Source: a virus
Virus record (IMG/VR): IMGVR_UViG_3300005607_000020
Location: 1-45,179 of that record
Direction: 5' to 3' (one strand)
Length of the DNA: 45,179 bases
Shown here: piece after piece, positions 1 through 41,151 of the stretch
Numbering within the stretch: the stretch's first letter is position 1
How the letters are laid out: each line of letters opens with the position of its first letter
The notes under the pieces: model-generated
Seen by the model: only the letters and a program-made list of their open reading frames with translations
The model's database searches: none
Told to the model about the DNA's origin: nothing
Made by a program: the position numbers and the translations under genes

Positions 1-455
1 GAGGAAAAACACGGAACGCCCCTCGTATTCTGCCCCTGAGTTCCCGGGTCAGCGAAATGCTAAATGCCCGCCGGCAAAACAGCCGCTCGTCTTATATTTT
101 TACTAATGCAGCCGGCACCGGCCCGGTGCGCGTTTGGCAGTTGGATGAGCAAAACAGTCAAGTACGAGAGAAGTTGGGGCTGAAGGATTGTGTGCTGCAC
201 AGTTTTCGGCACACCTGCGCCACACGTTTGGGCGAGGCAGGCATGGATGCTGTGGCCATTATGCATTACATGGGACACGGCTCGTTGACCATCGCGCAGA
301 GATACATTAAATCAACGGCAAAGATGGTCGCCCGGGCTGGTGCCGCCATCGAATCCGGAAACCGGAAGAGTCTCGATGCGGCGCCAGAGGTATATGCATT
401 TTCGTATGCAGTAGATAAACAAGGTAAGGACGGAGAAAATGAGGAGTATTGCTAA
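1..455 (+). CDS. int: Tyrosine recombinase (phage integrase), C-terminal part
   Basis: This is the catalytic end of a lambda-type site-specific recombinase that cuts and rejoins attP and attB. The frame is already open at base 3, and the residues before the first ATG (base 57) read as normal integrase sequence (GKTRNAPRILPLSSRV), so the gene continues upstream of the window and is not a short ORF. Visible catalytic elements are the HxxR box (HSFRHTCATRL), the next box YMGHGSLTIAQRY with its histidine, and the nucleophilic tyrosine at the end of that box. The gene ends 15 bases before a tRNA-Leu 3' fragment, the usual place for an attachment site. Its last codons contain one copy of a 21-bp repeat found again beyond the att core. 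Identity is certain; the exact family is not. Confidence 0.95.
   Translation, partial: GKTRNAPRILPLSSRVSEMLNARRQNSRSSYIFTNAAGTGPVRVWQLDEQNSQVREKLGLKDCVLHSFRHTCATRLGEAGMDAVAIMHYMGHGSLTIAQRYIKSTAKMVARAGAAIESGNRKSLDAAPEVYAFSYAVDKQGKDGENEEYC
390..410 (+). repeat. Left copy of 21-bp att-flanking direct repeat
   Basis: A 21-bp sequence (core TGCATTTTCGTATGCA, with TGCAT/ATGCA as inverted half-sites) lies inside the 3' end of the integrase gene and recurs exactly at 642-662. The two copies bracket the tRNA-like core at 471-527, as arm-type integrase or excisionase sites do. The role is inferred from position. Confidence 0.7.
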
Positions 456-1420: not shown

Positions 1421-1460
1421 GTTGTTAGACTATTAGACTATTAGATTATTAGGTTGTTGG
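1421..1460. repeat. Short tandem repeat between convergent stops
   Basis: The whole gap between the plus-strand 62-aa gene and the minus-strand giant gene is an imperfect 8-9-bp tandem repeat. On the minus strand it reads as CTAATAGT units and begins inside the giant gene's stop (ACAACCTAA). No hairpin terminator is seen here. Confidence 0.75.
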
Positions 1461-4400
1461 ATGTACGGCAAAAAGCCGCTTTAGCCGGTTGAAGATAGGA
1501 TCGTTTGCCCGCTCTGCCGGCGTCATGTCCGTAAATGCTTTTTTGAAATATTCATTCTTTTTCTTGAGCATCAGCGGAGTCAGGGCTACTTTTTCATCGC
1601 TCGTGGCGAGGTCCCAAATCTCCATAAATTGACGCATGGGGAGACGGGAAGATTGCATGTACAGCCGGGCGACATCAGCATCCATTCCACGTGTTTGCTC
1701 GTAATCGTGTAATATTTGCTTAATTTCTTTGGGAGGCAAGACGCCGGCCACCTGCTCATACCACTTCTCCGGAGTAATTTCTCCGGATCGCAAGCGGTCT
1801 TCCCAGGCATGACGTAGTTGGAATTTACGAAGAGCCGCTTGATCCACCGGCCCTTTACTGGACATATCACTGGCAAACTGTATTGCTTTCTTTTCTGCTT
1901 CAGTAAGATTGGGTTCAGCGGTGATACCAACAGATCGCGCCACTTGCCCCACGTTACCAACGGCAGAAGGAAGCTCTCCGCTAAGAGCACGACCCACTGC
2001 CTGAATTGGAATAGGAGCAAGATTCCGTGTAAGGTCAAGCACTGTTTGCCAACCGGTTTCTTTGCGGCCGCGATAGTCTTCTTGTGTGGCTGCTTCGATC
2101 CCGCTGCGAACAAGCGGGCTTTCGCGTCCTTTCAGAAATGCCGCCGGATCGCGAACAGCATGGAGCATGTCCGTAGGCAATGTACGTAGGCTATAAACAA
2201 TTTCTTGCCCGTCTTTCTTTTTATGCACAACACCAAAAGGAGCCTCGTTGTGCATTTTACCCGTTGTGAGCATATTCAGAATACGGGCAGTGATCCACAA
2301 CCCTGCGGTAAACTTGATCAGATCACGACGTAAAATTTTACCGCCGGTGGGATCGAACACTCGTTTAATCATACGCACTTCGGTTTCAAGCCAGTCGGGA
2401 GCCAATGTCATTAAACGGAGAAAATCCTGCGCCCCTGCTGTACGACCGAGCTGCTTATAATTGAGGCCGCCCAGGCGCTCGTTAGTTTCAATAGCAGCCG
2501 CGCGTGCGGCCATATCCTGAACGCTGAGACCGGCGAATTCTCGATGCTGATCTATAAATTTGCGAACAGCAACAGGATTGTTGAATTGGGACAGGTAATC
2601 CTGATAAAGCTTCTTCCCTACCAGAACCTTAAGAGAGGGCATCAATTTCTCGAAGGTGAATTCCTGTAGCCAGCGCTGTACGTTTCGGATCGCAGGTATT
2701 TTGCCTACTAGGCCGCCATACGAAATTAATCCTTCTTGATATTCTCGAGGAGAGAACCTTGTTCCGACGGTCAACCCTTGCCGAACCAAGCGGCTCAGAA
2801 GGGGATCGTCGTGAAGATTCCAATCCACTACACGAGGTAGGACTCCCGACATCAATGCACGCAAAGCTAGCTGATTAATATGGAAAGGAGACAAAGACAA
2901 CAGGGTGTGTTTTGCAAGCGTGCTGCCTTTTAGAGCGGCTTTTAATATCGGCGTCCCTTGGATTGGGGACTTGTCGGCGCCAACCAGGCGTCGAACGAAT
3001 TCTGTCGCTTCAGGATGTATCAACAGGTCGCTTTTCATAAATATCGGTACGCCTTCGGGAGTTTTAGCGATCCAGTTCCATCCTTTTAAAGCGGGGTGGT
3101 CGATCTTGACGTAGTAATCAGGGTTCCAAATATATTTTTTATTCGGATCATACGTGTAAGACCCCTCTTCTTCTGTTCGACGAGGAGGAGCAGTAGTTTT
3201 TGAGGACAGCGGCTCTCCTTTTAACTCTGCAAGCTGTTTTTGTAGCGCCTCAATTCTTGACTGTAGTTCTTCGATGGATGGTTCTTTGGACTCAATTCCT
3301 TCTTGGAACAGAGGCTGGCCGGGTTCGCGTACTTCGATTAAATTATCTCCATCCCAAAATGGAGCATTCGGAAGGGCATATTTAGACTCACGGCTAAAGG
3401 TTGCGTCATAAGGTGTTTTCCAGGTGTCAGGGAAATGCCGATTAGCGCTTTGGTGAGCAGACTTGTCTCCGGACTCCATTGCTTTCCAATATCCCCGCAT
3501 ATCATAATCAGCGTAAGGGACATCTTTCCAAGGAATGTGGTTGTCTTTTACCCACTTCTGGAACCGAGCTTCTTCCTCAGGGGTAAGCTTAGTCACATAG
3601 GGTCCCGGCTTGGCCCATTTTTTATTGTGCTCATAATAAGCCTGATAATTCGTCCAAGCACTGTCGTCGGTTCCTACTTGGCCGCTGCGGTCATAAATAG
3701 GAGCCCCGTTGGGGCGCACAATCACCTGATGAGAGGCGGCTTCCAAAGCCTTTCGGCTGCCGCTGCTTTGATTGGCTTTTTCGACATAGGCTGGCCGAAT
3801 ATCTGGTGTCTTTGCCGCTTGAAATTGTGCCGGGGAACGACGGGCAAGCGGCCCCTGGTCTACTGTTTCTTGTCTCCCGTCGGGGTATCGTAATACAATC
3901 CGATCATACGGGCCGGGTTTTACATCTACAGCATCAACAGTGTTTGGAATGGGTGTTTCACGGCCACTTCGCGTGTCAATTCTAATTCGTTGGACTCCGC
4001 GCTGTCGCTCTGATGCGACGCGGCTAATTGCTTCTGGAGATTCTCCAATTTGTCCGTGAGCAGCATATAGGGCTTGTCCGGTTTCCGGACGGTGTAGCAG
4101 TCGTTCAACTGCTTTAATGTCTTCTTGAGCTAGGTTAATTAAACGGCTAACTCGTTCGGGATCGGAGCTTTCTCTTGCTAATTGCAAATACCCCTTGGCT
4201 GTCATCACGTTATTTATATCGTGAATTTGGATCGGGGTTAGCCGTTCTTTTTGTGCTTCAAATTCTCTTGCCAGAGAAGAAGCCTGCGATTCTAAGTCAT
4301 CAATAATTTCTTGTGTGCCTGTAACGCCGTTATTTAGGGCCGCCAACTTCTTGTTATAATAGTCAATCGTTTCTTTATAAGCTTTGGGGGCTTGGAGACC

Positions 4401-7400
4401 TCTGCGAACGATGGTGCGATAGAGATTTTTCAGGAATACAGCAATACGTTGATAAAGAGGCTTTAACTCTTCAGGCACTTGAAGTTTTTGAGCATGTACT
4501 GCTTCGATTTGTTTTGCCAGCAATTCTAGTTGATTTTGCGTCAGCACTCCGCCAGGCCTTAGAGATTCTCCGGATTCACGAACAATGGCCGCAAGCACTG
4601 GTTTGAAGTCCGGATCGCTCAAGTATTCAGAAGTCAACACGTGAGCCCATTCGTGAATAACCGTGCTGGCATCAGCATGAGGGGCAAGCTCAACCACCCA
4701 TGTGCCGTCTGCTCGCCGATACGTTGCTCCACGAGGATTCGGAACACCTTGCCGCTTGGCTTCTTCCAGATTCTTTTCTGAAAGGCCGTACTTAAATTCT
4801 ACGGGCTTTCTGGCGAGCAAGTCTTCCACCGACGTGCCCAAAGCATTTGCCAGGACTTCCGTCATGTGTAATGCAATTTTGGGCGAGTTGTTGTCCGGAG
4901 CTACTTTGCTGAGTTTGTCTAAGAATGCTTTGGCATTTTTGCCGGCAGTCAGCTTTTTGAAGTAAGCATCTTCAGGGTTTTCTGCTGGTGTCGCAGCGGT
5001 TGTTGCTTCATGCTGCGCCATTAAACCATATTTGTGAATTATCTTTGCCAGATCGAAGCTTTCATTTTGTAAATCTTCCGTGGTAAAGAAAGCACTCTTT
5101 CTGGGGTTATGTGTTTCAATAATTACCCCGCTGCTTGTGGGGTGGACTTCTCGGCCCAGCCGGCTGAGCAGGTCCGCCTCAATGACTTTTTCGGCGGTCG
5201 GTGTTAGATGGTTTAATTCGTACATTGCCTGGCTGGCGCCATTAGGCTGCGTGTGAATGCGAATCCAGCCATCAGCAATCATTGCCTCATTGGCTTTTTG
5301 TCCTTTAAGACCCGGATGCAGTGTTTCTGCAATAGTTTGGTGCATCTGGTTTTTGTCAGGATCGGCAATGATTCTCTCTTTGAGTCCAGGGTGCAGCCAG
5401 GAAATAGACAGACCCCGATATCGCCCCTGCGGAGGAGGCTCGTCAGGATTGAAGGGCTCGACTTTGAAGCCTGCTGTGCGCGCTGCTTCAATATCCTTAA
5501 GTGCCTGGGGAGCGACAACGAAGCCTCCTTTTTGATACAAGGTCTTTTTTGTTGGACGTGCTGGTCGCTCCTCTTCAGGGGTTAGCTGGAACTCCTCGGG
5601 ACCTTCGTATTTGAGGGCGAGGTGGGCTGCGATGGATTCGGCGTTGGATTGGAGACGGGAGGCAATATATCGGGTAATGCGGTTAGCAATCGGATTATTT
5701 TCTCCAGTCTCTCTCCCTGGGGTTGCTCGTTCTGCCGCGCTTTTTGCAGCCTCAACACGGCTCTTGTCAATTCCAAGCCTACTGAGCGCATTTCTAATTT
5801 CCTCCTTTTTTTCCTCTATTTCTTTCTCTTCTTTAGTGGGTTTTTTGGCTTCTCGAGCCTTGACCTCCAAGCCAGGCAGGCCGGGAGTTTTTGAAGCAAC
5901 TTCCCACGGGGCTGGTTCAAAAGCATCAACAAGAATATTAATCAATTCCTGGCTATGTACTTTAAGGTCTTCTGGCCGCATTGTTTCTAACACAGCCGTC
6001 AATGGTTTTGCAAGCTTTCCTTTTTTAGTATCTAGTCCAGCCATCTCGGCTAGTGATTTAACAAACGTCCAAATAGCTGCTTGAGTTTGAGGGACTGTCC
6101 AACCCAAATCTTTTGCCGTTTCACGAACGCGGCTTTCATAGGCCAAATATTCTGCTTTGGTAAAACCACGCGGCTTTTGCCCGGCAAAAATCTGCATCCA
6201 GGTGTCTAAAGTTGCACGATTAATGTCCCCCATCAGATTAGCTGAAAAAGCGTTTACTTTTGGTCCGTGGATTTCCTCTGAGCCTGTAAAAGCACGAACA
6301 ACGTTTGAAATATGCGCTTTTTCCATTAAGTGATATTGTTCGTTTCGTGCTAGCTCTTCAATTGTTTTTTCATCTGTAGGCCGCCCTGCCTCGATCCAAT
6401 CAGCCCATAGGTTAAGAGCATTAACAAGGTCCTTCCGCACCGGAACACGCGGTGATAAAGCGGCCAACACGTCAGTAAATTTAGGAAGGTCTTTCTCACC
6501 AATAATCTCCTTAAAAGCCGGAGCATAAGTGTCATACCAATATTTGCCAACTGCACCTGCTTTGGCCGCTGCTTTGTGCTCGGCTTTAGAAGGCAGATTT
6601 TCTATGAAATTAACAACAGCTTCACGAGTGCTTGGGCGTAATTGTCTCCATTCATTTATGGGAACGCCATACGGTTTCCGGACAGTTTTATTTCCTTCCT
6701 GAAATAGTGGCTGCCCCTGTTCTACAAGCGCCTTTCTCATTTCAGGAGTAAACATTAAGGCATGAACTTCCGGGCCTTCTTCACCCGCCCCCGTGGGTTC
6801 TCCGGTTGGAGACAAATGCGTTGTAGTGACCTTAGCGCCCCACTTTTTCGCATATTTTTCAGCGAACTGCGGGATCATTTCATCATAAAGACGTTTTGCC
6901 CAGGTACCTCCCATCTTAAGATCGAGACCAGAAAACGTCTCTTCTTTTCCGGTAGAGTCGCCAAGCTTATTTATAATTTTTTGACTAAGGTCTTTGCCTA
7001 TAACAGCAGGAAGTGCTTCGGGACTAAAAAAGCCGCCATTGGGAAGCCGCAATTTTTCACCGGCTTTGTCTGTCGCAGTAATGTGGATTGAACCATCTTC
7101 ATTCCGAAGTGCTTTAATATTTTCGATATATTTTGCTAAGTTGTATCGTTGTGTTTGTTCTTCTCCGGTTGTCCAAACTACTCCATCATAACCCTCATCG
7201 GCGGCCAAAGCCAAAAAACGTCTGAAAGCCACTTCGTGCCAGTTTTTTGCAAAAGGCAGAGGAGGGGCAGATTCAATTTTACGAGTAAGTTGCTCTGCTT
7301 TATCTACCCACTCGGGTCCGGCTGCTTTGAGCAAAAGACTTCTTACTGCTCGACGAATAGGCTCAGAAACGCTAGCGCCAAGGAAGTTTTCAGCAGCTAC

Positions 7401-10400
7401 TCTAGCCATTTCTGGGGTGCGATAAATTAAAAAACCCACTTCTTCAGGGGTCATAATGCTGAGCGCCGGGGGTTCTTTCTCATAGAGTTCGGGGTGTTCT
7501 CTGACAAAATTTGAAAGTTTAATGATGGCTTCTCTTTTTAGCTCTTTTATTTCTTTTCGTGCGTTGGTTTTCTCTTCTTTGGTTGCATATCCTTTTTGAG
7601 AGCCTTTTTCGTGTATATCACTTTGGAATTCTTGACCGATCAAAACGCGCTTGCCGTTTTCTGTTATTCCGTCAGAAACACGAAGATGAAAAACTGGATT
7701 TAGGATATTTCTCCAATGAGGCGAGTAGTATTCGCCTCGTGCTGTTTTAGGAACCGTTGCAACGAACTCTCGATAATGTGTTAAAGGAATTCCTTGTAAT
7801 GTATATTTTGGATAGAAGGGCTTATTAAATCTTTGGATGGCACGTACAAAATCTTCCGCATCTTGTCTGGTTTGAAATAATGTTTCCTCGCCTTCGGGGT
7901 TTGTTAATAACCATTTATTGTTAAGTGGATGGATTGTATAATCATTCCAGTGTAATGCTCCATTTTCATCCATTGACCAAGAAATGGGCTCTTGTAACTC
8001 ACCAAAACTTATCTCATGTAATTCAACTGAGTGACTACGGAGATAATCAAGGACTTCTTTTTTGCTGATCTTATTTTTACCTTCTTTGGTTAGAAAATCA
8101 GCAAGTCCGGTCTGAGCAAGTTCATCAGCCTTAACCCCTGGAGTGTTTTTAAGAGTATTCAGAATTTGGTCGGCAGACGCTGTATTGGGTAGTTTTTCTT
8201 CGGCAGCGCGCGTCAGAGCGGAATAATACCATTGCTCTCGGGCAGGGGCCGCCGCGCTTTCTTGGAAGAGTGTTTTTTCCATGCCTGGTTGATAACCGGT
8301 AGGAACCTCTTCAAAAGTGCGAAGATTTGTGATGGCCAGCTGCTTAGCCTTAAGCGCGTTCCGGAGAGCCTCTTCTTTATCTGGAACAACCGTAGACACA
8401 TCCAGATAGTGCTCTCCTGACGGAGATTTCCAAGTCCCCAGATTATTTTTCGGTATCCGTAGCAGGTCCCAATTATTTCTAATGTAAGTCAGGAGTTCTT
8501 CTGGCGTTGGATCATGGTCTAGTATGACTTCTCGATCTTTATAAGGAGAATAAGCCCATACATCCCGCCCAACTTGGTTCTCTCCTGTTATAACATTGAA
8601 TGTGCTCCCGCCTGTTTCATTGTGAACCGCCAGAATCTGTTCTACGAGATCAGGAAGAGGAATTCTCGTGTTCCGCATTTCTTGCAGAACCTCGCCGGGT
8701 TCGCGCAATTCTATTGGTAGAATGGTTGCTTTATTTTCTGCATAAGGCCGCTGGCTAAGAGGAACATACCCGGGTTGTCCTTTTTCAATTACTCTTCCAT
8801 TTTCATCCCGGAGATGCCGACCAAAATTGACCCAAGAATTCTGGGCTTTGGTCTCCGTAAACATGGCTGCTTGCGCTAAAGGTGAGAACATCTCTCGGTG
8901 CGATTGAAACGCGCCTTCCTCCCCTCGAGGACCAAATTGAAAGCCATGCATTGCATGACCAAAAAGGTCATGCACCGCACGAAACATGTTGTTATAACTG
9001 ACTCCTGTTCTAGGGTCGATTTCGGAAAGCGGATAACCTGCGGGTAGTTCGCCGCCTGTAAAGAAATAGAGATGGTGGTTATTAATTACGTCCTGCATCA
9101 TCTCCGCAGAATTGGCGTAAGGCTGCCCTGGTTTGGTCCACGGTTCAAATTTAAAGCCGTGCTCTATAGCCCAGTTCCATTGTTGTTCAATCTCTTTTTT
9201 GAATTGAGCATAGGCTCGTTGAACTTCCGGGTCGTTTGGATTATGCTGCGCTCTCTCATAAGTATCGGCAATTTCCATTGCCCGCTGCTGATCTATTTCA
9301 GGCACCGGTCGGTTCCGCGTAATAGGCGGCAGGCCCACAGTTTTGTTGTATTCGTCAGCCAGGTTTTGTATTTCGGGGCTGCCTCTTTCAGCACCCTCCT
9401 GGAACATGACTTCTCCACTCAGAGCCGGCTCGCCACCAAGAGGAATAATTTTTCGTTGTTTAAGAAAGCGCTCCAGTTGCCCTTCTCTTTGCAGCCGCTG
9501 CAAGTGCTCCGCCCCAATTATTCGTGATTTGACAGCCTGGGGCCATGCAAGAACTGCTGGATTGCCGGCGGCATCGGTTACTTGTGTTGCAGTACCGCCC
9601 ATAACACCCAGAGGGAGCCCGTCTGAAGCACTGATTTCTCGCAGACGGTCTAACGCGTTTCTATTGGCAATAGCTTCGCCTACTTTGGCGCGCTCATAAG
9701 CAGCCAGATCGAGAGGATCAGTAACGGCTAGTTTGAGCCCAAGGTGGATTCCGTCACCCACAGTATCCAGCACCCGGTGCCGCGCCATTGAAACGCTGGT
9801 ATGGAATTCTCCATTGGCGGCTTGATGCCGAACGACATTTGCCGGCTCATTGGGTTCTAACGGTTTATTAAGGTCTTCTCCCCATAAGCGGGTGATATAG
9901 TGGTCCACAAGCTCTGTAATAACCTGCGCCGCCTGGGCCATTCCTCCGGTCTCTTGAGAAAACCCTTGTGTATATTTCTTGAATGCCAGCATTTCCGGCG
10001 TAGGGTCTGCGGCCAAACGCAGGGCTTGAAGTACATTTTCTCGTTCTTTATCGGTATAGTTGCGGCTGTTTTTAAAGGTTCGCTTTTCTGCTAATTCCTT
10101 CCAGCGAGCAAGTGTCCGCTGCTCTTCTTCGCTTAAGGGTGGAGCATCGGGACGCTCGGGTAATTTAAGATCAGGCCGTTCTGCGCTGTCGGCCAATGTA
10201 TTCAGCAGCCTGACAATCTTATCCCGGTCGCCATCAAGATCGGTATGGAAAAGTACTGCAAATCTTTCCTGGGGTGTTAATTTTTTAAACTGCTTCTCAC
10301 CCTCGTCCCGAAAACGGACGGCATCCCGATGATGCATTGAAATATCGTGCTGCTGCTGAGCTAGAATTTCATTATTTAATTTATTGCGGATATAGCTGGG

Positions 10401-11654
10401 CCGTTGTTTAAAACCAAATTTTTCTGCATACTTGTTATAAGTTTCTCCAACGTCCCTTTTCAGGGCCTCTGCGCCTATGTGGGCAAAGGCCGTTCCTGCC
10501 AGAATATCGCCGGCTAATTCCGCTGCACGTTCATAGTCTCCGTTTTTAAGAGCATCCAGATATGCCGGTGCTTGTTGCGTTAAGGCCATTGCAAGCTGGC
10601 CCTCGAAACCGGCATCCACCAGTGTTTGTATTCCTTTAGCAACGACGTGTGCTTTTGGCGCACTCACGCCCGCCTGGCGCAACATCCAAGCGCCTAGCCC
10701 GGTGATTCCGCCTTGCTTGGACTTGAGCGCTCCAGCTACCGAAGCGTCATCGGGTGTGGAGATTAAGCCGCTGCGGGCCAGCGCTTGTGCTCCTTTTTCC
10801 CAGGCTTGCGTGTCCACGCCGGCAGAGTGGAGAGCTTCTCGAATGGGTTTTCCTGCTTTTATAGCTTCTTCGGCAACATCTCCACCTTTAATTACGTTCG
10901 CTAATTCTTCCGCACTGAGACCGGCTTCCTTTAAGGTGGCAATGGCGCCGCGTTCCCACAGAGCACCGGTACCGAAGGTCGAAAGTAGGAACGCTAATTG
11001 TAGTGGTGACGTAAAACCCGACAGAGTGTTTGCCGCAGACTTCTCTAACCCTGAAGCAATTTCGCGTCCGGTTTTTCCAGCAATGGCTTGACCAACAGCA
11101 CCGAAAAGATGTCCTTCAGGATCGATCTGTTTGAAGTCAATGATTGGCAGATTTGCAGCATCCCAGGCTTTATGGAAAAATCCTTCCCCGGGCTCACCGA
11201 TGGATTTTCCTCGAAACACATCGATCCAACTTTGTGCCTGCTCGGGAGGAGCGGTTTCAGAAAGAGAGGATATTTTTTCTTGCTTTTGTTTTTTGCCTGC
11301 AAAAATAGCAAGCAAAGGATTGGCGGGAACAGAAGGCAGACTGCTTTCTGATGTTGTTGCCGGCTCTGGCGAAGGTGCTTCTGTTTTCCTTAACTGATTA
11401 TAATTTTTAAATAAATCTACAAGAGGGTTCTTGTCTTCTTTTGGAGAAGAGTTTTGTAAAGAATTTTCTGCTTTTCTGTTTGCTATTTGGTTGTAGCTCC
11501 CAAATAAAGCAACAAGTGGGTTGCTCGAGGAGGACGGGGCAGAAGAAGGCTCCGTTTCTGAAGGAGGCGGGCTTGCAGGCTGCGACACCCCTGCTTCAGC
11601 TTCAGGAATCGTTGCATTTTGAAACAAAGAGACAAGAGGGTTAGAATCAGGCAT
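1449..11654 (-). CDS. Giant polyvalent internal virion (ejection) protein, 3401 aa
   Basis: A very large multidomain protein of the kind packaged in podovirus heads and injected ahead of the DNA. Residues 1-120 are disordered, with four NPL(V/L)xxF motifs at 5, 45, 76 and 112. About 130-740 is helical with hydrophobic stretches. From about 750 come inserted 'large polyvalent protein' domains: an HDLFGHAMHGF / GEEGAF domain (about 890-925); a QWYYSAL...GQEFQSDIHEKG...VWTTGEEQTQRYNL...KKWGAKV domain (about 1130-1640); a domain with VNAFSANLMGD...DTWM (about 1800); a zincin-like HEWAH metallopeptidase domain (about 2332); an HDINNVMTAKGYLQLA helix pair (about 2477); and a DYDMRGYWKA...HFPDTWK domain (about 2715-2760). 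LFQEG-type motifs sit at several domain borders. The C-terminal 600 residues resume a membrane-prone structural part. No good Shine-Dalgarno precedes the ATG. Domain names are from memory of the families; each enzymatic role is inference. Confidence 0.9.
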   Translation of the reverse strand: MPDSNPLVSLFQNATIPEAEAGVSQPASPPPSETEPSSAPSSSSNPLVALFGSYNQIANRKAENSLQNSSPKEDKNPLVDLFKNYNQLRKTEAPSPEPATTSESSLPSVPANPLLAIFAGKKQKQEKISSLSETAPPEQAQSWIDVFRGKSIGEPGEGFFHKAWDAANLPIIDFKQIDPEGHLFGAVGQAIAGKTGREIASGLEKSAANTLSGFTSPLQLAFLLSTFGTGALWERGAIATLKEAGLSAEELANVIKGGDVAEEAIKAGKPIREALHSAGVDTQAWEKGAQALARSGLISTPDDASVAGALKSKQGGITGLGAWMLRQAGVSAPKAHVVAKGIQTLVDAGFEGQLAMALTQQAPAYLDALKNGDYERAAELAGDILAGTAFAHIGAEALKRDVGETYNKYAEKFGFKQRPSYIRNKLNNEILAQQQHDISMHHRDAVRFRDEGEKQFKKLTPQERFAVLFHTDLDGDRDKIVRLLNTLADSAERPDLKLPERPDAPPLSEEEQRTLARWKELAEKRTFKNSRNYTDKERENVLQALRLAADPTPEMLAFKKYTQGFSQETGGMAQAAQVITELVDHYITRLWGEDLNKPLEPNEPANVVRHQAANGEFHTSVSMARHRVLDTVGDGIHLGLKLAVTDPLDLAAYERAKVGEAIANRNALDRLREISASDGLPLGVMGGTATQVTDAAGNPAVLAWPQAVKSRIIGAEHLQRLQREGQLERFLKQRKIIPLGGEPALSGEVMFQEGAERGSPEIQNLADEYNKTVGLPPITRNRPVPEIDQQRAMEIADTYERAQHNPNDPEVQRAYAQFKKEIEQQWNWAIEHGFKFEPWTKPGQPYANSAEMMQDVINNHHLYFFTGGELPAGYPLSEIDPRTGVSYNNMFRAVHDLFGHAMHGFQFGPRGEEGAFQSHREMFSPLAQAAMFTETKAQNSWVNFGRHLRDENGRVIEKGQPGYVPLSQRPYAENKATILPIELREPGEVLQEMRNTRIPLPDLVEQILAVHNETGGSTFNVITGENQVGRDVWAYSPYKDREVILDHDPTPEELLTYIRNNWDLLRIPKNNLGTWKSPSGEHYLDVSTVVPDKEEALRNALKAKQLAITNLRTFEEVPTGYQPGMEKTLFQESAAAPAREQWYYSALTRAAEEKLPNTASADQILNTLKNTPGVKADELAQTGLADFLTKEGKNKISKKEVLDYLRSHSVELHEISFGELQEPISWSMDENGALHWNDYTIHPLNNKWLLTNPEGEETLFQTRQDAEDFVRAIQRFNKPFYPKYTLQGIPLTHYREFVATVPKTARGEYYSPHWRNILNPVFHLRVSDGITENGKRVLIGQEFQSDIHEKGSQKGYATKEEKTNARKEIKELKREAIIKLSNFVREHPELYEKEPPALSIMTPEEVGFLIYRTPEMARVAAENFLGASVSEPIRRAVRSLLLKAAGPEWVDKAEQLTRKIESAPPLPFAKNWHEVAFRRFLALAADEGYDGVVWTTGEEQTQRYNLAKYIENIKALRNEDGSIHITATDKAGEKLRLPNGGFFSPEALPAVIGKDLSQKIINKLGDSTGKEETFSGLDLKMGGTWAKRLYDEMIPQFAEKYAKKWGAKVTTTHLSPTGEPTGAGEEGPEVHALMFTPEMRKALVEQGQPLFQEGNKTVRKPYGVPINEWRQLRPSTREAVVNFIENLPSKAEHKAAAKAGAVGKYWYDTYAPAFKEIIGEKDLPKFTDVLAALSPRVPVRKDLVNALNLWADWIEAGRPTDEKTIEELARNEQYHLMEKAHISNVVRAFTGSEEIHGPKVNAFSANLMGDINRATLDTWMQIFAGQKPRGFTKAEYLAYESRVRETAKDLGWTVPQTQAAIWTFVKSLAEMAGLDTKKGKLAKPLTAVLETMRPEDLKVHSQELINILVDAFEPAPWEVASKTPGLPGLEVKAREAKKPTKEEKEIEEKKEEIRNALSRLGIDKSRVEAAKSAAERATPGRETGENNPIANRITRYIASRLQSNAESIAAHLALKYEGPEEFQLTPEEERPARPTKKTLYQKGGFVVAPQALKDIEAARTAGFKVEPFNPDEPPPQGRYRGLSISWLHPGLKERIIADPDKNQMHQTIAETLHPGLKGQKANEAMIADGWIRIHTQPNGASQAMYELNHLTPTAEKVIEADLLSRLGREVHPTSSGVIIETHNPRKSAFFTTEDLQNESFDLAKIIHKYGLMAQHEATTAATPAENPEDAYFKKLTAGKNAKAFLDKLSKVAPDNNSPKIALHMTEVLANALGTSVEDLLARKPVEFKYGLSEKNLEEAKRQGVPNPRGATYRRADGTWVVELAPHADASTVIHEWAHVLTSEYLSDPDFKPVLAAIVRESGESLRPGGVLTQNQLELLAKQIEAVHAQKLQVPEELKPLYQRIAVFLKNLYRTIVRRGLQAPKAYKETIDYYNKKLAALNNGVTGTQEIIDDLESQASSLAREFEAQKERLTPIQIHDINNVMTAKGYLQLARESSDPERVSRLINLAQEDIKAVERLLHRPETGQALYAAHGQIGESPEAISRVASERQRGVQRIRIDTRSGRETPIPNTVDAVDVKPGPYDRIVLRYPDGRQETVDQGPLARRSPAQFQAAKTPDIRPAYVEKANQSSGSRKALEAASHQVIVRPNGAPIYDRSGQVGTDDSAWTNYQAYYEHNKKWAKPGPYVTKLTPEEEARFQKWVKDNHIPWKDVPYADYDMRGYWKAMESGDKSAHQSANRHFPDTWKTPYDATFSRESKYALPNAPFWDGDNLIEVREPGQPLFQEGIESKEPSIEELQSRIEALQKQLAELKGEPLSSKTTAPPRRTEEEGSYTYDPNKKYIWNPDYYVKIDHPALKGWNWIAKTPEGVPIFMKSDLLIHPEATEFVRRLVGADKSPIQGTPILKAALKGSTLAKHTLLSLSPFHINQLALRALMSGVLPRVVDWNLHDDPLLSRLVRQGLTVGTRFSPREYQEGLISYGGLVGKIPAIRNVQRWLQEFTFEKLMPSLKVLVGKKLYQDYLSQFNNPVAVRKFIDQHREFAGLSVQDMAARAAAIETNERLGGLNYKQLGRTAGAQDFLRLMTLAPDWLETEVRMIKRVFDPTGGKILRRDLIKFTAGLWITARILNMLTTGKMHNEAPFGVVHKKKDGQEIVYSLRTLPTDMLHAVRDPAAFLKGRESPLVRSGIEAATQEDYRGRKETGWQTVLDLTRNLAPIPIQAVGRALSGELPSAVGNVGQVARSVGITAEPNLTEAEKKAIQFASDMSSKGPVDQAALRKFQLRHAWEDRLRSGEITPEKWYEQVAGVLPPKEIKQILHDYEQTRGMDADVARLYMQSSRLPMRQFMEIWDLATSDEKVALTPLMLKKKNEYFKKAFTDMTPAERANDPIFNRLKRLFAVHPTT

Positions 11655-16258: not shown

Positions 16259-19200
16259 TCACCTCTTGTTTAATTCCACGGTCATATAAACCGGAATTAG
16301 GGAAAGCGTTCCTCCCGAATTTGTGCTAACAAAAAAGCTATAGGCGGAGCTTCCGGTTAAGTCGTCAAAGGAAACCTCAGTAAGGTCATATTTACTCCCT
16401 CCGGGAGAATCAAATGACTGGTAGCCCCACTCCATGATCGTTGTTCCAGCTGCGTTTTTCAGTTGTATCCCATAACCAAGAGCCGTTGAATTTGTGCTGG
16501 CAATGGCGAAGTTGACTGAAACCTTGGCATAAGAAAAGTTGGATGGAAGGTTAATACTGCTTATGCTTGCAATCGTCCCCGATGTGGTGATGTTTACGTA
16601 TGATGTTACCTTTGTGTATAGAGAACCTGTAATGGCATGAGTTTGAACGCTACCCGTTTGCACCAAATTCCCGGACACACCAGCGACCTTTTGCCAAGTG
16701 GGGTCATCCTGAATACTTCCCAGTGTATGCCACGATCCAGCGCCAGCAGAGTATATCGCCAGCACCTGCGGGCTTGACAGGTAAACACCCTCAAAAATAA
16801 ACACGTCTTGAAGGTTAATTCCATTGTTGTTGGTGTTCCATCCGTTCTGTAATGGCGCCGGCCATCCGGCGGAATAGGCCGTCCCCAGGGTCCAATAGCT
16901 TTCGGATGTAATTATTTCGTTTGGAGCAGAAATGCTGTTATTCCACTGCCCGTCAATATAAAGATTTAGGGTTGAATTATTGTACGTTGCTGCCACATGA
17001 TGAGGAAAACTCCAATTAAGAGCATAAGTGGATTTAACTATAGATGGGCTGCCCGTCCATGCTGCCGCATAAACATATCCGGAAGTATCTACAAACAAAT
17101 GCGGCTCATAATTTGTCGGTGTTCCAAATGGTGCTGCGCTCGTTCTTCCGATTATCCCTGTCGTATTATTCCAAGCGGAACTCCCCGGAACTACCCATCC
17201 GCCAATTGACCAAGTGGTTGTTCCGCTGCCATTGGAAACATAAAACGCAGAACTGCCGTTAAAGGCCGCTGTGCCAGCGATTGCATCGCCGGGGGCAAGC
17301 ACCGACCAGCCCGATACTCCCGTTGAGCCAACCGCTGTCAGTGTTGATCCCGAGCGGGTTCCAAGACTGCCCATGCTGCCGTTGTCAAGCGGCCAATAAT
17401 AGGTTGGAGAAAGCGACTGAATCACTCCGTAAGACGGTCTTGCCGATAGATACGCGTTTGTTATGGTGCCGGTATTCAAGCCACCAAGGCCGCCGCCATT
17501 AACAACAGCATACCTTCCTCCGCCATCGGGCCAATTGCCAAGGGTGTGATAACCAATGAGTCCCAGGCTTCGTAGTGTTCCGTTGGGATCAAACTGGTTC
17601 ACCCCATTTACAAGATGGGTAGCGATATGCCCATTGGCGTCGTGCAAGAGGGTTCCACCGGAGGGAGAAAAGCTACCCGAAGGAGGATTTCCACTAGCCA
17701 TCGACCACTGCCAAGTTGTTCCCTGTGGAACAAAGGCCTCTACGAATCCATTGCCAGGAAAAGCGGGAAGTTGGACATAAAAATCCCACGCCAGCGCAGT
17801 TGCTGGGTTACCTCCCTGCGGATAAATCTGAATGGCTGAGATTGCCGCATTATCTCCCTGAGCTATCCAGTAAGCGAGAAGGTTCTGGCTCGGATTTCCT
17901 CCGCTCGCGTAATTTTGCTGTGTGGTGCTTAATGTAGAAATACCAGTGTAAGAGCCGCCTGCATAGCCGTTACTCGTCATGAATTCAAGGCGGAGGTGAG
18001 ACCCAGCTTGGCTTGCCGCGCTATACCAAGAACCAATTTTGTACCATGTAGCACTCGATGGATTTGGAAGGGCCTGAATGTTGCGCGCAACGCGCGTTTG
18101 CCCGTCCATTGTCATGGTGTCCATGTTGCGGACGAGAACCGCCTTAACGCCCCAAATGTAAGCCCAATCAGACGTTGATGCGGCGTTGGTAAAAATGGCT
18201 TGGCCTTGTAACTCTGTTGAGTTTGAAGGAACTGTGTACGTTCCACTGAACTTTGTCCATGAAGTAGGAGCGCCCATGGCTATCAATTGACCATCACCAT
18301 AATTACCACGATAAAACAGCCAATTGCCTGCGCCCCCAGTCTCGATCCAAAACTCAAAGTAATAAGATTCTCCAGGGATCATCTGGAAAATGTTGGACAT
18401 AGAATCTCCTCCGTAATTCGCGGAGGATACGTTGTAAATCACGCTGCCCGTCTGACCGCCGGGGAGAGTTACGCCAGTTTTTATCTGAGAATTTTCAGAC
18501 CACCCCGGCGCCGTCTGGCCATTTGAACCCACCATTGCTGAACCGTTGTAAATCAGGTTCTCATGATTGTTCATGGCGGGGGTTTTGTTGTAGTTTGAGC
18601 TGTCGCCAATATTATCCAAAATTTTATTGAGATGCCCGCCCTGAGCAAAATCAATTAGAGCACGATTGGCAGCATCGACGGCCGCCACGGCATTCATACC
18701 GCCGCCGTTAATCACAGCATATCTGCCGCCTCCATCAGGCCAGTGCTGAAGAGTATGATAACCAATAAGCCCAAGTGTTCTTGCGGTTCCATTGGGATCA
18801 TATTGATTTACTGAGTTATTTAAATTGGTGGATATATTCCCGTTGGCATCATGCAGAAGGGTTCCTCCCGCAGGAGCAAAGCTTCCTGTCGGTGGAGTAG
18901 CCGCCTCCATTGCCCAATTCCAATTAGTGCCGTCCGGAACATGCGCCTCCACAATTCCGTTTCCCGGATTTGCCGGAAATTTCATGTAGAAATCCCATGA
19001 GGTCGCTGTTGCGGAATTTCCTGTATTAGGATAAATATTGATCGAAGAAAGAGCTTGGTTATCGCCTTGTGCAATCCAATAAGCCGAAAGATTATTTGAT
19101 GGGTTGCCGCCCGCTCCGTAGTTTTGCTGCCCTGCCAGTAATGTGGAAAGCCCTGTTACTGCGCTTCCCCCGTAACCATTAGAGCTTGTGAGCTTCAACT

Positions 19201-19768
19201 GTAGATGCGAGCCCGCTTTCGTAGAATTGCTCGACCAGGTACCAACTTTATACCAAGTTGAGGCAGAAGGATTCGGCGTCTTTTTATAATAAATTGTCGC
19301 TGGTTTTGCCTCGGGTCCGGGCGCCGATGATATCACATGAAAAGAAGTCATCGGCGGTGACGGTGTCTGAGACGGTGTTGTTGTCGTTGATGCCGGTGGC
19401 GGAGACGTAGCCGGCGAAGAAGCCATCGGAGAATTGGGAGTTACTGGTGGAGGGGGCGCTGTGGCTACAGCCTGACTTTCTACTGTAAGAACTTTTCCTA
19501 TGGCCTGTCCCGCTGTTGCTTGAATTTGTGATGGAATTGTTGGAAGTGCGCGTGAAAAAGTGGGTGTATCCGGAAAAAATCGTGTAGTATAAATATCCGC
19601 GTTTGGATCAACTGGGGGATTGGCACGATTAGGAGAGGGGTTCCCGGGAACCGAAAGTTGTGTGCCTGGGTCTTGAGGCGGCGCCTGAGGCACACTTATG
19701 TTGATAGGCGTGAGGCCGGCCTTCTCTTTTAATTCCGGTGTTGAGATTCTTTGCTCTATTCTCGGCAT
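16259..19768 (-). CDS. Tail fibre / receptor-binding protein with duplicated module and LamG domain (1169 aa)
   Basis: The N-terminal 150 residues are proline-rich linkers. A module of about 180 residues (STWYKVGTWSS ... WPDGGGRYAVINGGG) at about 172-356 is repeated at about 573-753 (SATWYKIGSWYS ... GGGRYAVVNGGG). Between them (about 400-545) is a galactose-binding-like jelly roll (NLIYNGSA ... SYYFEFWIETGG). About 786-1000 is a LamG/concanavalin-like lectin domain (YYWPLDNGS ... WSIGGWV ... LYIDGQW). A beta-rich C-terminal cap follows. Carbohydrate-binding folds on a long multi-domain protein, next to the tail nozzle gene, indicate host-surface recognition. It is separated from the nozzle gene by one base and from the small accessory gene by three. 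Confidence 0.88.
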   Translation of the reverse strand: MPRIEQRISTPELKEKAGLTPINISVPQAPPQDPGTQLSVPGNPSPNRANPPVDPNADIYTTRFFPDTPTFSRALPTIPSQIQATAGQAIGKVLTVESQAVATAPPPPVTPNSPMASSPATSPPPASTTTTPSQTPSPPMTSFHVISSAPGPEAKPATIYYKKTPNPSASTWYKVGTWSSNSTKAGSHLQLKLTSSNGYGGSAVTGLSTLLAGQQNYGAGGNPSNNLSAYWIAQGDNQALSSINIYPNTGNSATATSWDFYMKFPANPGNGIVEAHVPDGTNWNWAMEAATPPTGSFAPAGGTLLHDANGNISTNLNNSVNQYDPNGTARTLGLIGYHTLQHWPDGGGRYAVINGGGMNAVAAVDAANRALIDFAQGGHLNKILDNIGDSSNYNKTPAMNNHENLIYNGSAMVGSNGQTAPGWSENSQIKTGVTLPGGQTGSVIYNVSSANYGGDSMSNIFQMIPGESYYFEFWIETGGAGNWLFYRGNYGDGQLIAMGAPTSWTKFSGTYTVPSNSTELQGQAIFTNAASTSDWAYIWGVKAVLVRNMDTMTMDGQTRVARNIQALPNPSSATWYKIGSWYSAASQAGSHLRLEFMTSNGYAGGSYTGISTLSTTQQNYASGGNPSQNLLAYWIAQGDNAAISAIQIYPQGGNPATALAWDFYVQLPAFPGNGFVEAFVPQGTTWQWSMASGNPPSGSFSPSGGTLLHDANGHIATHLVNGVNQFDPNGTLRSLGLIGYHTLGNWPDGGGRYAVVNGGGLGGLNTGTITNAYLSARPSYGVIQSLSPTYYWPLDNGSMGSLGTRSGSTLTAVGSTGVSGWSVLAPGDAIAGTAAFNGSSAFYVSNGSGTTTWSIGGWVVPGSSAWNNTTGIIGRTSAAPFGTPTNYEPHLFVDTSGYVYAAAWTGSPSIVKSTYALNWSFPHHVAATYNNSTLNLYIDGQWNNSISAPNEIITSESYWTLGTAYSAGWPAPLQNGWNTNNNGINLQDVFIFEGVYLSSPQVLAIYSAGAGSWHTLGSIQDDPTWQKVAGVSGNLVQTGSVQTHAITGSLYTKVTSYVNITTSGTIASISSINLPSNFSYAKVSVNFAIASTNSTALGYGIQLKNAAGTTIMEWGYQSFDSPGGSKYDLTEVSFDDLTGSSAYSFFVSTNSGGTLSLIPVYMTVELNKR

Positions 19769-26013: not shown

Positions 26014-26724
26014 TTATTCGTGCCCGTTTCTAAAAACAAACAGGCTTCGACGATAAACAACCGAACCGGGCCCATCAGTGACCCGGCCAAAATATTTATT
26101 CACTTTCTCTTCGGTGGTGATCCGAGCTTTAATTAATCTTAGCAGCGGCGTCCGCCACCCCCTAACGCGCTCTTTTATTGGAATATCTCGAATCGGATCG
26201 AATTCATAAACACTGAATTCCGGCATATAACCGGTAGGAATGTACCACAAATATTCAAAAGTTTTGCCATCAAGCCGAGGTTGCGGCTGCCCATATACAC
26301 GGTAAACTGCTAAGTCGCCAATAATTCGTCCATCCGTAATATATAACTCGGATGGCAGCATCTTCTTGAGGCGATAAAGAAATTCAGAGTGGTGTAGATG
26401 ATTGACCCAGCGGGGACCATCGTCCATATAATCAAGCTGGTGCTTCCATCGCTGAGCCTTTGTTCGTTCGTCGTAATAATTCAATTCGGTCAGGCGGGCG
26501 ATGTGCTCTGAAGTTGAAAGGCGAGGAACCATCTCACACTCATAGCACTGATCGCGTACGCCTTCGCGATAAGAAGAGTCGCGGCGAAACTGACCATATG
26601 GCTTAATTTTCCCGCAGCTCAGGCACTCTTTCCAAACGACCTTAGTATTCGTTTGGTCGAGTACTTCTGCTGTAACGGGCGCTCCGCCGTGTCTAAGAAT
26701 TTCATCAACACCAGGAAAGTGCAT
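26014..26724 (-). CDS. Zinc-finger virion-cluster protein (236 aa)
   Basis: Near the N-terminus, ECLSCGKIKPYGQFRRD followed by DQCYECE gives a four-cysteine zinc finger (CxxC-x21-CxxC), the type often seen before HNH or in recognition proteins. The rest is a compact alpha/beta domain (FEYLWYIPTGYMPEFSVYEF) with a basic C-terminus. No nuclease motif is visible. It lies between the zinc-ribbon coiled-coil gene and a decoration-like gene. Proteins of this form recur in podovirus head/tail clusters but I cannot name the family. Confidence 0.72.
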   Translation of the reverse strand: MHFPGVDEILRHGGAPVTAEVLDQTNTKVVWKECLSCGKIKPYGQFRRDSSYREGVRDQCYECEMVPRLSTSEHIARLTELNYYDERTKAQRWKHQLDYMDDGPRWVNHLHHSEFLYRLKKMLPSELYITDGRIIGDLAVYRVYGQPQPRLDGKTFEYLWYIPTGYMPEFSVYEFDPIRDIPIKERVRGWRTPLLRLIKARITTEEKVNKYFGRVTDGPGSVVYRRSLFVFRNGHE

Positions 26725-29702: not shown

Positions 29703-30658
29703 CGACGTGTTTAGGCAACTAACGTTCCCGTTAGTGCGCGCTCATGATCGCTCATGAGTCCAGACTGTATCTTTGCTCTTTTGTCTTTAGCCGCCTTCAT
29801 CTGTTGGTAAAAATCTTCTCTTATTTCGGGCGTTGGTTTATTGTGCCTTACATAATTTAGAAGTATTTTACCTTCGTCTCGTTTAACGATTAAATATGGC
29901 AAGAGAGCAAGCAGGTATTTTTCAATGTCCTGCTTTTTGCTAATATACCAGACAAAAGCGGGCTTGCCTTTTTTATTTTTTAAAGGCGATATTGAGCCGC
30001 CAAACTTATTTTTTGCCAATTCTAGCAATGGCATAAAAGTATTAGTAATTCCGATCCGAACGTTGTAGGCCGGTCCTCGACTTATTACTAAATAACCCTC
30101 GCCATCTAAAATTGCCGCCAAATATGCTTGTAACGGCTTACCAACAAGAGCACCCGGCGTTTCAGTCGTTACGCAGCTGGATTTCTTCGCTTCTCTTAAC
30201 TTGACGAAAAGTTCGTCTCTCTTAACAGGATTTATTTGTCCGTCAAGATTTAAATATTCTAAAAGAATATTTGCTTGTTGACGCTTTTCAATTAAGTATG
30301 GCGAAATCGAAGTCAAGAAAAAACCGACACTTTTTCTACCATATAGTCGCCAATGGTATAGTGGCTTACTTAAATAGCCTCCATTCATGGCTGCCTTTTG
30401 GTAATTTATTGTGCCCCCGAAATGGTTAACAGCCCATTGCATTAGAGCCTTTGATCCATTTGTAAAGCCTACAAACGGCCGATAATTCACATAATTGGAT
30501 TTAAACGTCTTGAAGATGGAAAAGCACCCTTCACCATCCATTAGTCCGGCCATGTAAGCTTTGGTTTTTTCTCTCATCCAGTTTGCTCGGTGTTGTCTGT
30601 TCTTGTGATAGAACAGAGTTCCACCGATTTAGTCGGGTTTTAATTCAGCACTATATTT
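29703..30658 (-). mobile_element. Group I self-splicing intron in the major capsid gene (956 bp)
   Basis: Elements read on the minus strand: the exon end ATTCAGT pairs with intron GCTGAAT (P1, with the required U.G at the cut); TATAG just before it pairs with exon-2 CTATA (P10); CCGA-CTAAA-TCGG is a P2-like hairpin; AATCGGTGGAACTCT (30629-30615) and GACAACACCGAGCAAACTGG (30597-30578) fit the conserved P and Q elements of T4 td-type introns, with P5 CTGTTCT/AGAACAG between them; AAGATACAGTCTGGACT near 29773-29757 fits element S (P7 3' strand). Two 3' hairpins carry GNRA loops: CTCATGA-GCGA-TCATGAG (29758-29741) and CTAACG-GGAA-CGTTAG (29734-29719). The intron ends in G at 29703. Element R/P3 was not placed with certainty. 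Confidence 0.9.
29711..30577 (-). CDS. Intron-encoded LAGLIDADG homing endonuclease (288 aa)
   Basis: Two LAGLIDADG helices are plain: AYMAGLMDGEGCFSIF near residue 8 and AYLAAILDGEGYLVIS near residue 150, each with its catalytic acidic residue and each starting a beta-sheet saddle (VGFTNGSKALMQWAV; IGITNTFMPLLELAK). This is the single-chain, two-domain form. Such enzymes cut the intronless capsid allele so that repair copies the intron in. The frame starts just after the Q element and runs through element S and both GNRA hairpins, ending 8 bases before the 3' splice site, so its last 25 codons also encode ribozyme structure. No strong ribosome site precedes the ATG, in keeping with low expression from the late transcript. 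Confidence 0.93.
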   Translation of the reverse strand: MREKTKAYMAGLMDGEGCFSIFKTFKSNYVNYRPFVGFTNGSKALMQWAVNHFGGTINYQKAAMNGGYLSKPLYHWRLYGRKSVGFFLTSISPYLIEKRQQANILLEYLNLDGQINPVKRDELFVKLREAKKSSCVTTETPGALVGKPLQAYLAAILDGEGYLVISRGPAYNVRIGITNTFMPLLELAKNKFGGSISPLKNKKGKPAFVWYISKKQDIEKYLLALLPYLIVKRDEGKILLNYVRHNKPTPEIREDFYQQMKAAKDKRAKIQSGLMSDHERALTGTLVA

Positions 30659-40329: not shown

Positions 40330-41151
40330 TCAAATTGCAGGAGGAAGCGGGCAGAACACAAGATTAGTCGTGCCCCCGATGCGGCCGCTAAGGACGGCAA
40401 TGATAGCGTGCTGATCAAGATCAATCAAAGCCGAGCCGCTTGCCCCGGGTCCTCCGCCAATGCCCACCAGCATGCTATGTTCCCAATTAATGTGATCTTC
40501 GGGATAAATGAGTGGGAACTCTGAAGTACTGAATCCGGGCATTCTCGAAATGGTTCCCTCAAACCATTGGATGCTGAGGGCTGCCGGCCAACCAGCATAA
40601 ACAACCCGACTGCCTACATGGCTCTTGCGAATGTCGCCCAGAGGAATTGTCGGGCGTTTCTCTGAGGTCGCCAGAAAAAGCAGGGCATAATCCTGGCCTT
40701 CATCCTCACTGCCCTGCCAGATGAGGGTTAGCGGGAAAGGCCCCCGCTGGCCTTGCTCAAACTCGATAGAAAACGAGCCGGGAACACCGGCCGAAATACA
40801 ATGTGAAGCAGTTAGAACCAAGTAGCCCTTCCAAGGGAAGGGACTCTTACCATTAATCAGGGTCGCAGTGCACAAGCCCATCTCTTTAGTTATCGTTGTA
40901 TGCTGCTGACCCTTTTTATGCGAGCGAAGGAAATCGTCGTTGGAAGAAGGCTCAATCTGAACTCGCGCGCGCAACACACCAACGGCTGCTAAACTTCGCT
41001 GACGAAAAGCGGCATCTGCATCGGTAGCATGATTAGCTGGTTGAAACTGTATTAAACTATAGAACCAAACGAGCAGGATGATCAAAAAGACAAGAAAGAT
41101 ACTGTTAACTATTGTTGATGTTTTGGTTGTAGTTATATTTTTAGTCGGCAC
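40330..41151 (-). CDS. Membrane-anchored trypsin-like serine protease (273 aa)
   Basis: Catalytic triad visible: His in YLVLTASHCIS, Asp in GQDYALLFLATS, Ser in GIGGGPGASGSALIDLD. This is the S1/V8-type trypsin fold. A single transmembrane helix near the N-terminus (about 14-36, NSIFLVFLIILLVWFYSLIQ) would anchor it with the protease outside the cytoplasm. Start taken as GTG 41151; no strong ribosome site. Two cysteines (GLCTATL and ASHC) could form the usual disulphide. A surface or periplasmic protease carried by a phage late operon is unusual; it could act in lysogens, in lysis, or in exclusion. Confidence 0.85.
   Translation of the reverse strand: MPTKNITTTKTSTIVNSIFLVFLIILLVWFYSLIQFQPANHATDADAAFRQRSLAAVGVLRARVQIEPSSNDDFLRSHKKGQQHTTITKEMGLCTATLINGKSPFPWKGYLVLTASHCISAGVPGSFSIEFEQGQRGPFPLTLIWQGSEDEGQDYALLFLATSEKRPTIPLGDIRKSHVGSRVVYAGWPAALSIQWFEGTISRMPGFSTSEFPLIYPEDHINWEHSMLVGIGGGPGASGSALIDLDQHAIIAVLSGRIGGTTNLVFCPLPPAI

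Follow-up and report, generated by a model that had tools for sequence, protein, structure and literature searches.

The window analysed here is the whole 45,179-nucleotide viral record IMGVR_UViG_3300005607_000020 of IMG/VR (positions 1 to 45,179), read as one strand from 5' to 3'. Its open reading frame listing includes a gene for a polyvalent protein of 3401 amino acids (window 1449-11654, minus strand), and all features of this protein given below lie on the same strand. From its sequence the protein appears to qualify as polyvalent, as it combines several distinct domains that belong to the known polyvalent repertoire. It is divided by five short motifs, referred to here as border tags, and the six modules A to F were named according to these divisions.

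The tags are MFQEG at residues 750-754 (tag 1, window 9393-9407), LFQES at residues 1129-1133 (tag 2, 8256-8270), LFQEG at residues 1650-1654 (tag 3, 6693-6707), LYQKG at residues 2039-2043 (tag 4, 5526-5540, assigned by motif match) and a second LFQEG at residues 2782-2786 (tag 5, 3297-3311). The original prediction, made from the letters of the window, had placed them at 750, 1128, 1650, 2036 and 2783, which is correct within three residues. The pattern [LM][FY]Q[EK][GS] thus occurs five times in the protein, against a mean of 0.02 in 5000 shuffles of its sequence, none of which reached five, and the shorter pattern [LM][FY]Q has no match in the other proteins of the phage (30 open reading frames, 9346 residues). 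A chance origin of the five motifs is excluded. Among the three tags covered by AlphaFold2 (AF2) models, two lie in low-confidence linkers and the third terminates a fold. Tag 1 falls in a segment (737-755) with predicted local distance difference test scores (pLDDT) below 50, and tag 2 in a linker that has pLDDT below 50 in two models (1113-1140 and 1112-1138). Tag 3 forms the final ordered stretch of module C, and a linker with pLDDT below 50 follows at 1655-1661. Low pLDDT is used here as a proxy for disorder, and the AF2 models were built on few aligned sequences (29 and 41).

Module A (residues 1-749, 9408..11654) and module F (residues 2787-3401, 1452..3296) form the N- and C-terminal framework. 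Module B (residues 755-1128, 8271..9392) is modelled with a confident fold and contains an NMFRAVHD..GH..GEE..H..MFS core followed by a second domain. Module C (residues 1134-1649, 6708..8255) features a YYSALTRAAE head, a WHE..GYDGV.WTTGEEQ core and an ITPEMR..GQPLF end. Module D (residues 1655-2038, 5541..6692) contains DUF7178 (PF23802); this assignment, at residues 1694-1866 and so between tags 3 and 4, is the sole Pfam match in the protein. Module E (residues 2044-2781, 3312..5525) carries a zincin-like HEWAH motif and a C-terminal domain. A fold search with a model of residues 1095-1880, spanning the end of B, C and D, retrieved LPD and ART-PolyVal polyvalent proteins, and a PDB search with the same model gave no match. 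Independent relatives were found for each of modules B, C, D and E, in keeping with several distinct domains in one phage-encoded chain.

The only full relative found was locus L001 (IMGVR_UViG_3300033977_000049), which encodes 3340 residues. A scan with framework module F returned L001 alone once more, and whole-protein and C-module scans using the window sequence alone returned no relatives. L001 resembles the window in modules A (25-29% identity), D (31%) and F (49%) and has tags of its own, LFQES and LFQRM; it differs in that C is missing and its tags are placed at other joints. Because L001 also contains D and the second part of B, these belong to the shared set as well. The reading of the regions before 740 and after 2800 as the framework therefore holds for A and F, but the common portion extends beyond them.

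Individual modules also occur in single-gene homologues. The counterpart of B is Mycobacterium phage Colt gp97, from which the tag is absent, and that of C is Pelagibacter phage HTVC028P gp34, which ends with QPLFEIF. The final domain of E recurs C-terminally in Tunturiibacter phage Tunturi_3 gp25, which terminates untagged at WKGNKLVTKDGRLVTDETPR, whereas the window protein runs on to EPGQPLFQEG, so that tag 5 is added beyond the end of this domain. In Microcystis phage Mel-JY33 (L002), VLFQSE precedes an FYS module, much as LFQES precedes module C in the window; this phage is cultivable, and its LFQ/LYQ tags fall at 819, 1028, 1603 and 2725. The cultivated bacterium Draconibacterium mangrovi GM2-18 (L130) likewise encodes a polyvalent protein with a C module. 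One relative sharing module C carries the Pfam domains PF18760, PF18857, PF18853 and PF18819. A further polyvalent protein of 3180 residues (locus L029, 1-9542) contains three C-like domains with PLFQ[DE] at the end of each.

To separate tag from fold we rely on relatives of C gathered with the alignment cut ahead of the motif (80 viral and 41 genome loci); because the alignment stopped there, the motif could not bias this sample. The C end reads ITPEMRESVM.GQPLF nearly everywhere, and GQPLF is present in about 100 relatives, single-module ones included. The aromatic residue is F or Y in 99 of 99 C ends, as the extraction pattern requires, and is nearly invariant in the alignment. The residue that follows it in these ends is S (33), Q (29), A (11), then R, K, E and others. 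Since GQPLF persists even in proteins that terminate within a few residues of it, we attribute GQPLF to the fold and QEG to something other than the fold. Judging from this alignment, the C domain ordinarily ends with GQPLF, and QEG after the aromatic is the tag, which corrects the original reading of the 1650 motif.

Agreement between tags within the same protein was assessed in two ways. In a search-based test, the residues after the C-end aromatic were compared with the rest of their own protein, with other proteins as control. The aromatic plus three residues gave 27 own matches versus 5.0 ± 2.5, and the aromatic plus two residues gave 118 versus 66 ± 8.6; the anchors A/G, D/E, S/T, P, K and V gave nothing in this test and L gave a weak signal. 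The positional test, which involves no motif searching, sets the C-end aromatic against the aromatic nearest upstream of the FYS.L.RA.E head of C; the L149 pair, an artefact of a negative offset, was removed from it. Two residues agreed in 18 of 61 proteins versus 1.3 ± 1.1 expected, with 14 different tags represented, and where the +1 residue was equal the second residue agreed in 18 of 32 cases versus 5.2. The ART-PolyVal domain is unrelated to C, and the three residues following its end (NPDIRF-xyz) were the same as those after the C end in five of 19 proteins versus 0.37. The main sample was selected through its C domain. A separate set selected by a DNA pattern in ART (33 non-redundant proteins) gave 31 versus 13.2 (p 2e-4), with null controls. 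Aromatics inside B, an upstream choice that fell within the domain and serves as a negative control, showed no signal (35 versus 39.6). Relatedness was handled through removal of near-duplicates and the variety of tags, not through a tree. The agreement extends from about -2 to +5 relative to the aromatic, with no homology beyond these positions; because it ends at +5, we rejected shared linker composition as its cause.

Some relatives repeat their tag: [FY]SAR occurs six times in L136, [FY]SPK four times in L132, FSNR three times in L139 and MFQQ three times in L100. Tags in other phages and prophages include FSARD, FSPK, FSNR, MFQQD and FSLN. In L136 Pfam domains alternate with tags: MuF_C ends at 1126 with a tag at 1168, LPD37 ends at 1569 with a tag at 1582, and a tag at 3881 is followed by the start of ART at 3906. 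LFQ as a universal signal was rejected, as its enrichment in the relatives is only 1.6-fold and that of LFS is higher at 2.2-fold. When repeated [FY]xyz was sought de novo with no positional anchor, background diluted the signal, and the GQPLFQE DNA pattern had 28 matches in viral contigs, three in polyvalent proteins and the others by chance or unrelated. Polyvalent proteins of another phage group carry a glycine-type tag, [YFM]A[DEK]GGxV or DITKAxGGxV (L108:7997-12145, L110:4779-7844, L191:6583-10236, L208:4225-7758 and L220:1165-5013), and in L110, L099, L208 and L189 the proteins next to it have GG motifs of a similar kind.

At the DNA level, the two GQPLFQEG copies in the window are the same in eight of eight residues and in three of eight codons, all five changes being synonymous, and no pair of motif neighbourhoods has more than 9 nt of DNA in common. 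Because the codons differ and so little DNA is shared, DNA seams fail to explain the window tags; selection on the protein sequence does, as far as codons can tell.

The tag is thus constant within a protein, variable between proteins, located at joints and kept at the protein level, and from this combination we infer a recogniser that co-evolves with it. A single recogniser would read all tags of a protein and drift together with them. Tentatively, and with slightly less than even confidence, we interpret the five motifs as border tags read by such a recogniser, most likely as the cleavage sites of a trans-acting protease. Cleavage would be the likeliest use because cuts at the joints would free modules that exist elsewhere as separate genes, and the missing tag in the single-gene homologues also speaks for it. 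According to this model, the tags at the module joints, with the consensus hydrophobic-[FY]-Q-E-G, would retain their likeness through protein-level selection, the recogniser would most likely be a protease acting in trans, encoded by phage or host, and the polyvalent protein would be cut into modules at virion maturation or after ejection. The predicted products of the window protein are six pieces of about 750, 380, 520, 390, 740 and 620 residues. The original prediction had proposed processing sites as one explanation, and the motif does behave as a recognised short sequence confined to borders and to the 3401-residue protein; the protease that this proposal calls for could not be linked to it. 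It is possible, although we hold this more loosely, that these are true polyproteins in DNA phages, with a lineage-specific cleavage "dialect" at the joints, a co-evolving cognate protease and effectors freed from the packaged chain.

The question whether and how these giant phage proteins are processed has stood since they were first described. A tag that is alike within a protein and different between phages provides exact predicted cut sites, makes module borders readable from sequence alone in mostly unannotated proteins, and offers a route to the recogniser through co-variation. This rule was not found in the literature searched, and as that search was partial this is no proof that it is undescribed.

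Several observations weigh against cleavage at these sites. Module B comprises its core (about 760-985) and then a second domain (about 985-1120), and E (2044-2781) consists of several sub-domains, in both cases with no motif separating them. The motifs delimit multi-domain modules rather than each domain, and the earlier claim that they fall at domain borders is borne out by the linkers and fold end at 750, 1129 and 1650 but not by the untagged sub-domain borders of B and E. The two-residue match between both tested borders is found in only about 30% of the relatives, and a set selected on B gave a weak signal (p 0.04 for two residues and 0.004 for three). The tag does not behave as a prohead-protease substrate, with no [LM][FY]Q in the 9346 residues of other proteins. 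Neither of the two protease candidates in the window, the zincin-like motif of module E and a trypsin-like gene, fits the tag: tag density is 0.38 per 1000 residues in proteins with HExxH versus 0.40 in those without it, and the trypsin-like gene has no counterpart in the records of 44 tagged relatives, some of which are fragments.

The tags could instead be recognised and left uncut, acting as docking, unfolding or feeding signals for a portal, tail or packaging partner during head loading or exit. The protein-level evidence is the same as for cleavage, and the search for a protease gave none. We nevertheless consider this unlikely, as no partner was identified and the tags are positioned exactly at module ends, which would be unnecessary for a threading signal.

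It also seems quite unlikely that the tags are scars of module joining, in which recombination at short tags inserted or swapped modules, leaving a tag copy at each joint. The exchange of modules is compatible with L001, which has A, D and F but lacks C and so indicates that modules are exchangeable. Codon identity at shared tag residues in the relatives exceeds that expected from gene codon usage (124 of 208 versus 94.5), and serine codon class agrees in 40 of 54 cases versus 28.4, the pairs in these counts not being independent. At both borders flanking C, however, codon identity is close to expectation (36 of 65 versus 31.3), a count inflated by the artefact pair L149, and in L057, L068, L132 and L150 a conserved tag serine has switched codon class. 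A neutral scar is expected to lose amino acids and codons equally fast, whereas the GQPLFQEG copies in the window show five synonymous changes and no others. The recombination seams offered as the second explanation in the original prediction are not supported as seams of DNA homology in the window, where neighbourhoods share at most 9 nt and five of eight codons differ. We read some tags as probably combining an old copying origin with selection on the peptide.

Autoprocessing by the zincin-like domain of the protein itself is improbable. The HEWAH motif at residues 2334-2338 (4641..4655) could belong to such an activity, and there is a precedent in P1 DdrB, which is processed and has a zincin-like domain, zincin processing having been proposed for polyvalent proteins (Iyer et al, 2017; PMC5512222). 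The assignment consists of the motif alone, with no Pfam peptidase match, and the presence of HExxH makes no difference to tag density. Equally improbable is an ordinary fold end, in which the final strand or helix is completed by the aromatic with the residues beside it and the remainder is coincidence. GQPLF is indeed conserved in about 100 relatives, also where the protein stops soon after, and AF2 puts GQ in a bridge beside the fold body. This would cover the 1650 motif alone, and only up to F, whereas single-gene homologues lack QEG as well as the tags that follow B and E, and the within-protein agreement resides in the residues following F. Cleavage by the phage's own trypsin-like serine protease (window 40330-41151, minus strand, near the terminase gene) is highly improbable, since despite its PF13365 match (E 4.7e-9) and its H, D and S motifs it has an N-terminal membrane anchor and a serine nucleophile (GASGSA), the Gln-pocket GxH motif was not seen by eye, and the gene is absent from the relatives' records.

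Elsewhere in the window, HNH or homing-endonuclease-like genes are found among the late genes at 29711-30577 and 26014-26724 (both minus strand), the former directly adjoining the major head protein gene. The C-terminal part of a tyrosine recombinase, recognised by eye, lies at the window edge (3-455, plus strand), on the strand opposite to the late genes, and suggests a temperate phage. A protein of 1169 residues (16259-19768, minus strand) with a weak laminin-G or concanavalin-like lectin match is perhaps a tail or receptor-binding protein.

Among known systems, the polyproteins of RNA viruses processed by 3C or 3C-like proteases also have repeated LFQ-type joints between functional modules, but this is a resemblance only. 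The tags of the relatives are entirely different; Q is followed by E at four window sites and K at one, not by the small residue that follows a P1 Gln in 3C and 3C-like sites; and no chymotrypsin-fold cysteine protease was found nearby, the trypsin-like gene having a serine nucleophile. Prohead-protease processing of internal head proteins is exemplified by SPN3US gp245, with an A-X-E motif (PMC10052503). It shares with the window a single phage-specific short motif at many sites of head or ejected proteins and differs in that the SPN3US motif occurs in several head proteins, whereas the window tag occurs in one protein, at module joints. The polyvalent proteins were already suspected to be processed in their description (Iyer et al, 2017; PMC5512222), which mentions no border motif and proposes zincins as processors, with which the tags show no association here. 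Like them, the window protein is very long and multi-domain, is encoded among late phage genes and has a zincin-like motif, and its relatives contain ART-PolyVal, LPD37, LPD38, MuF_C and InPase.

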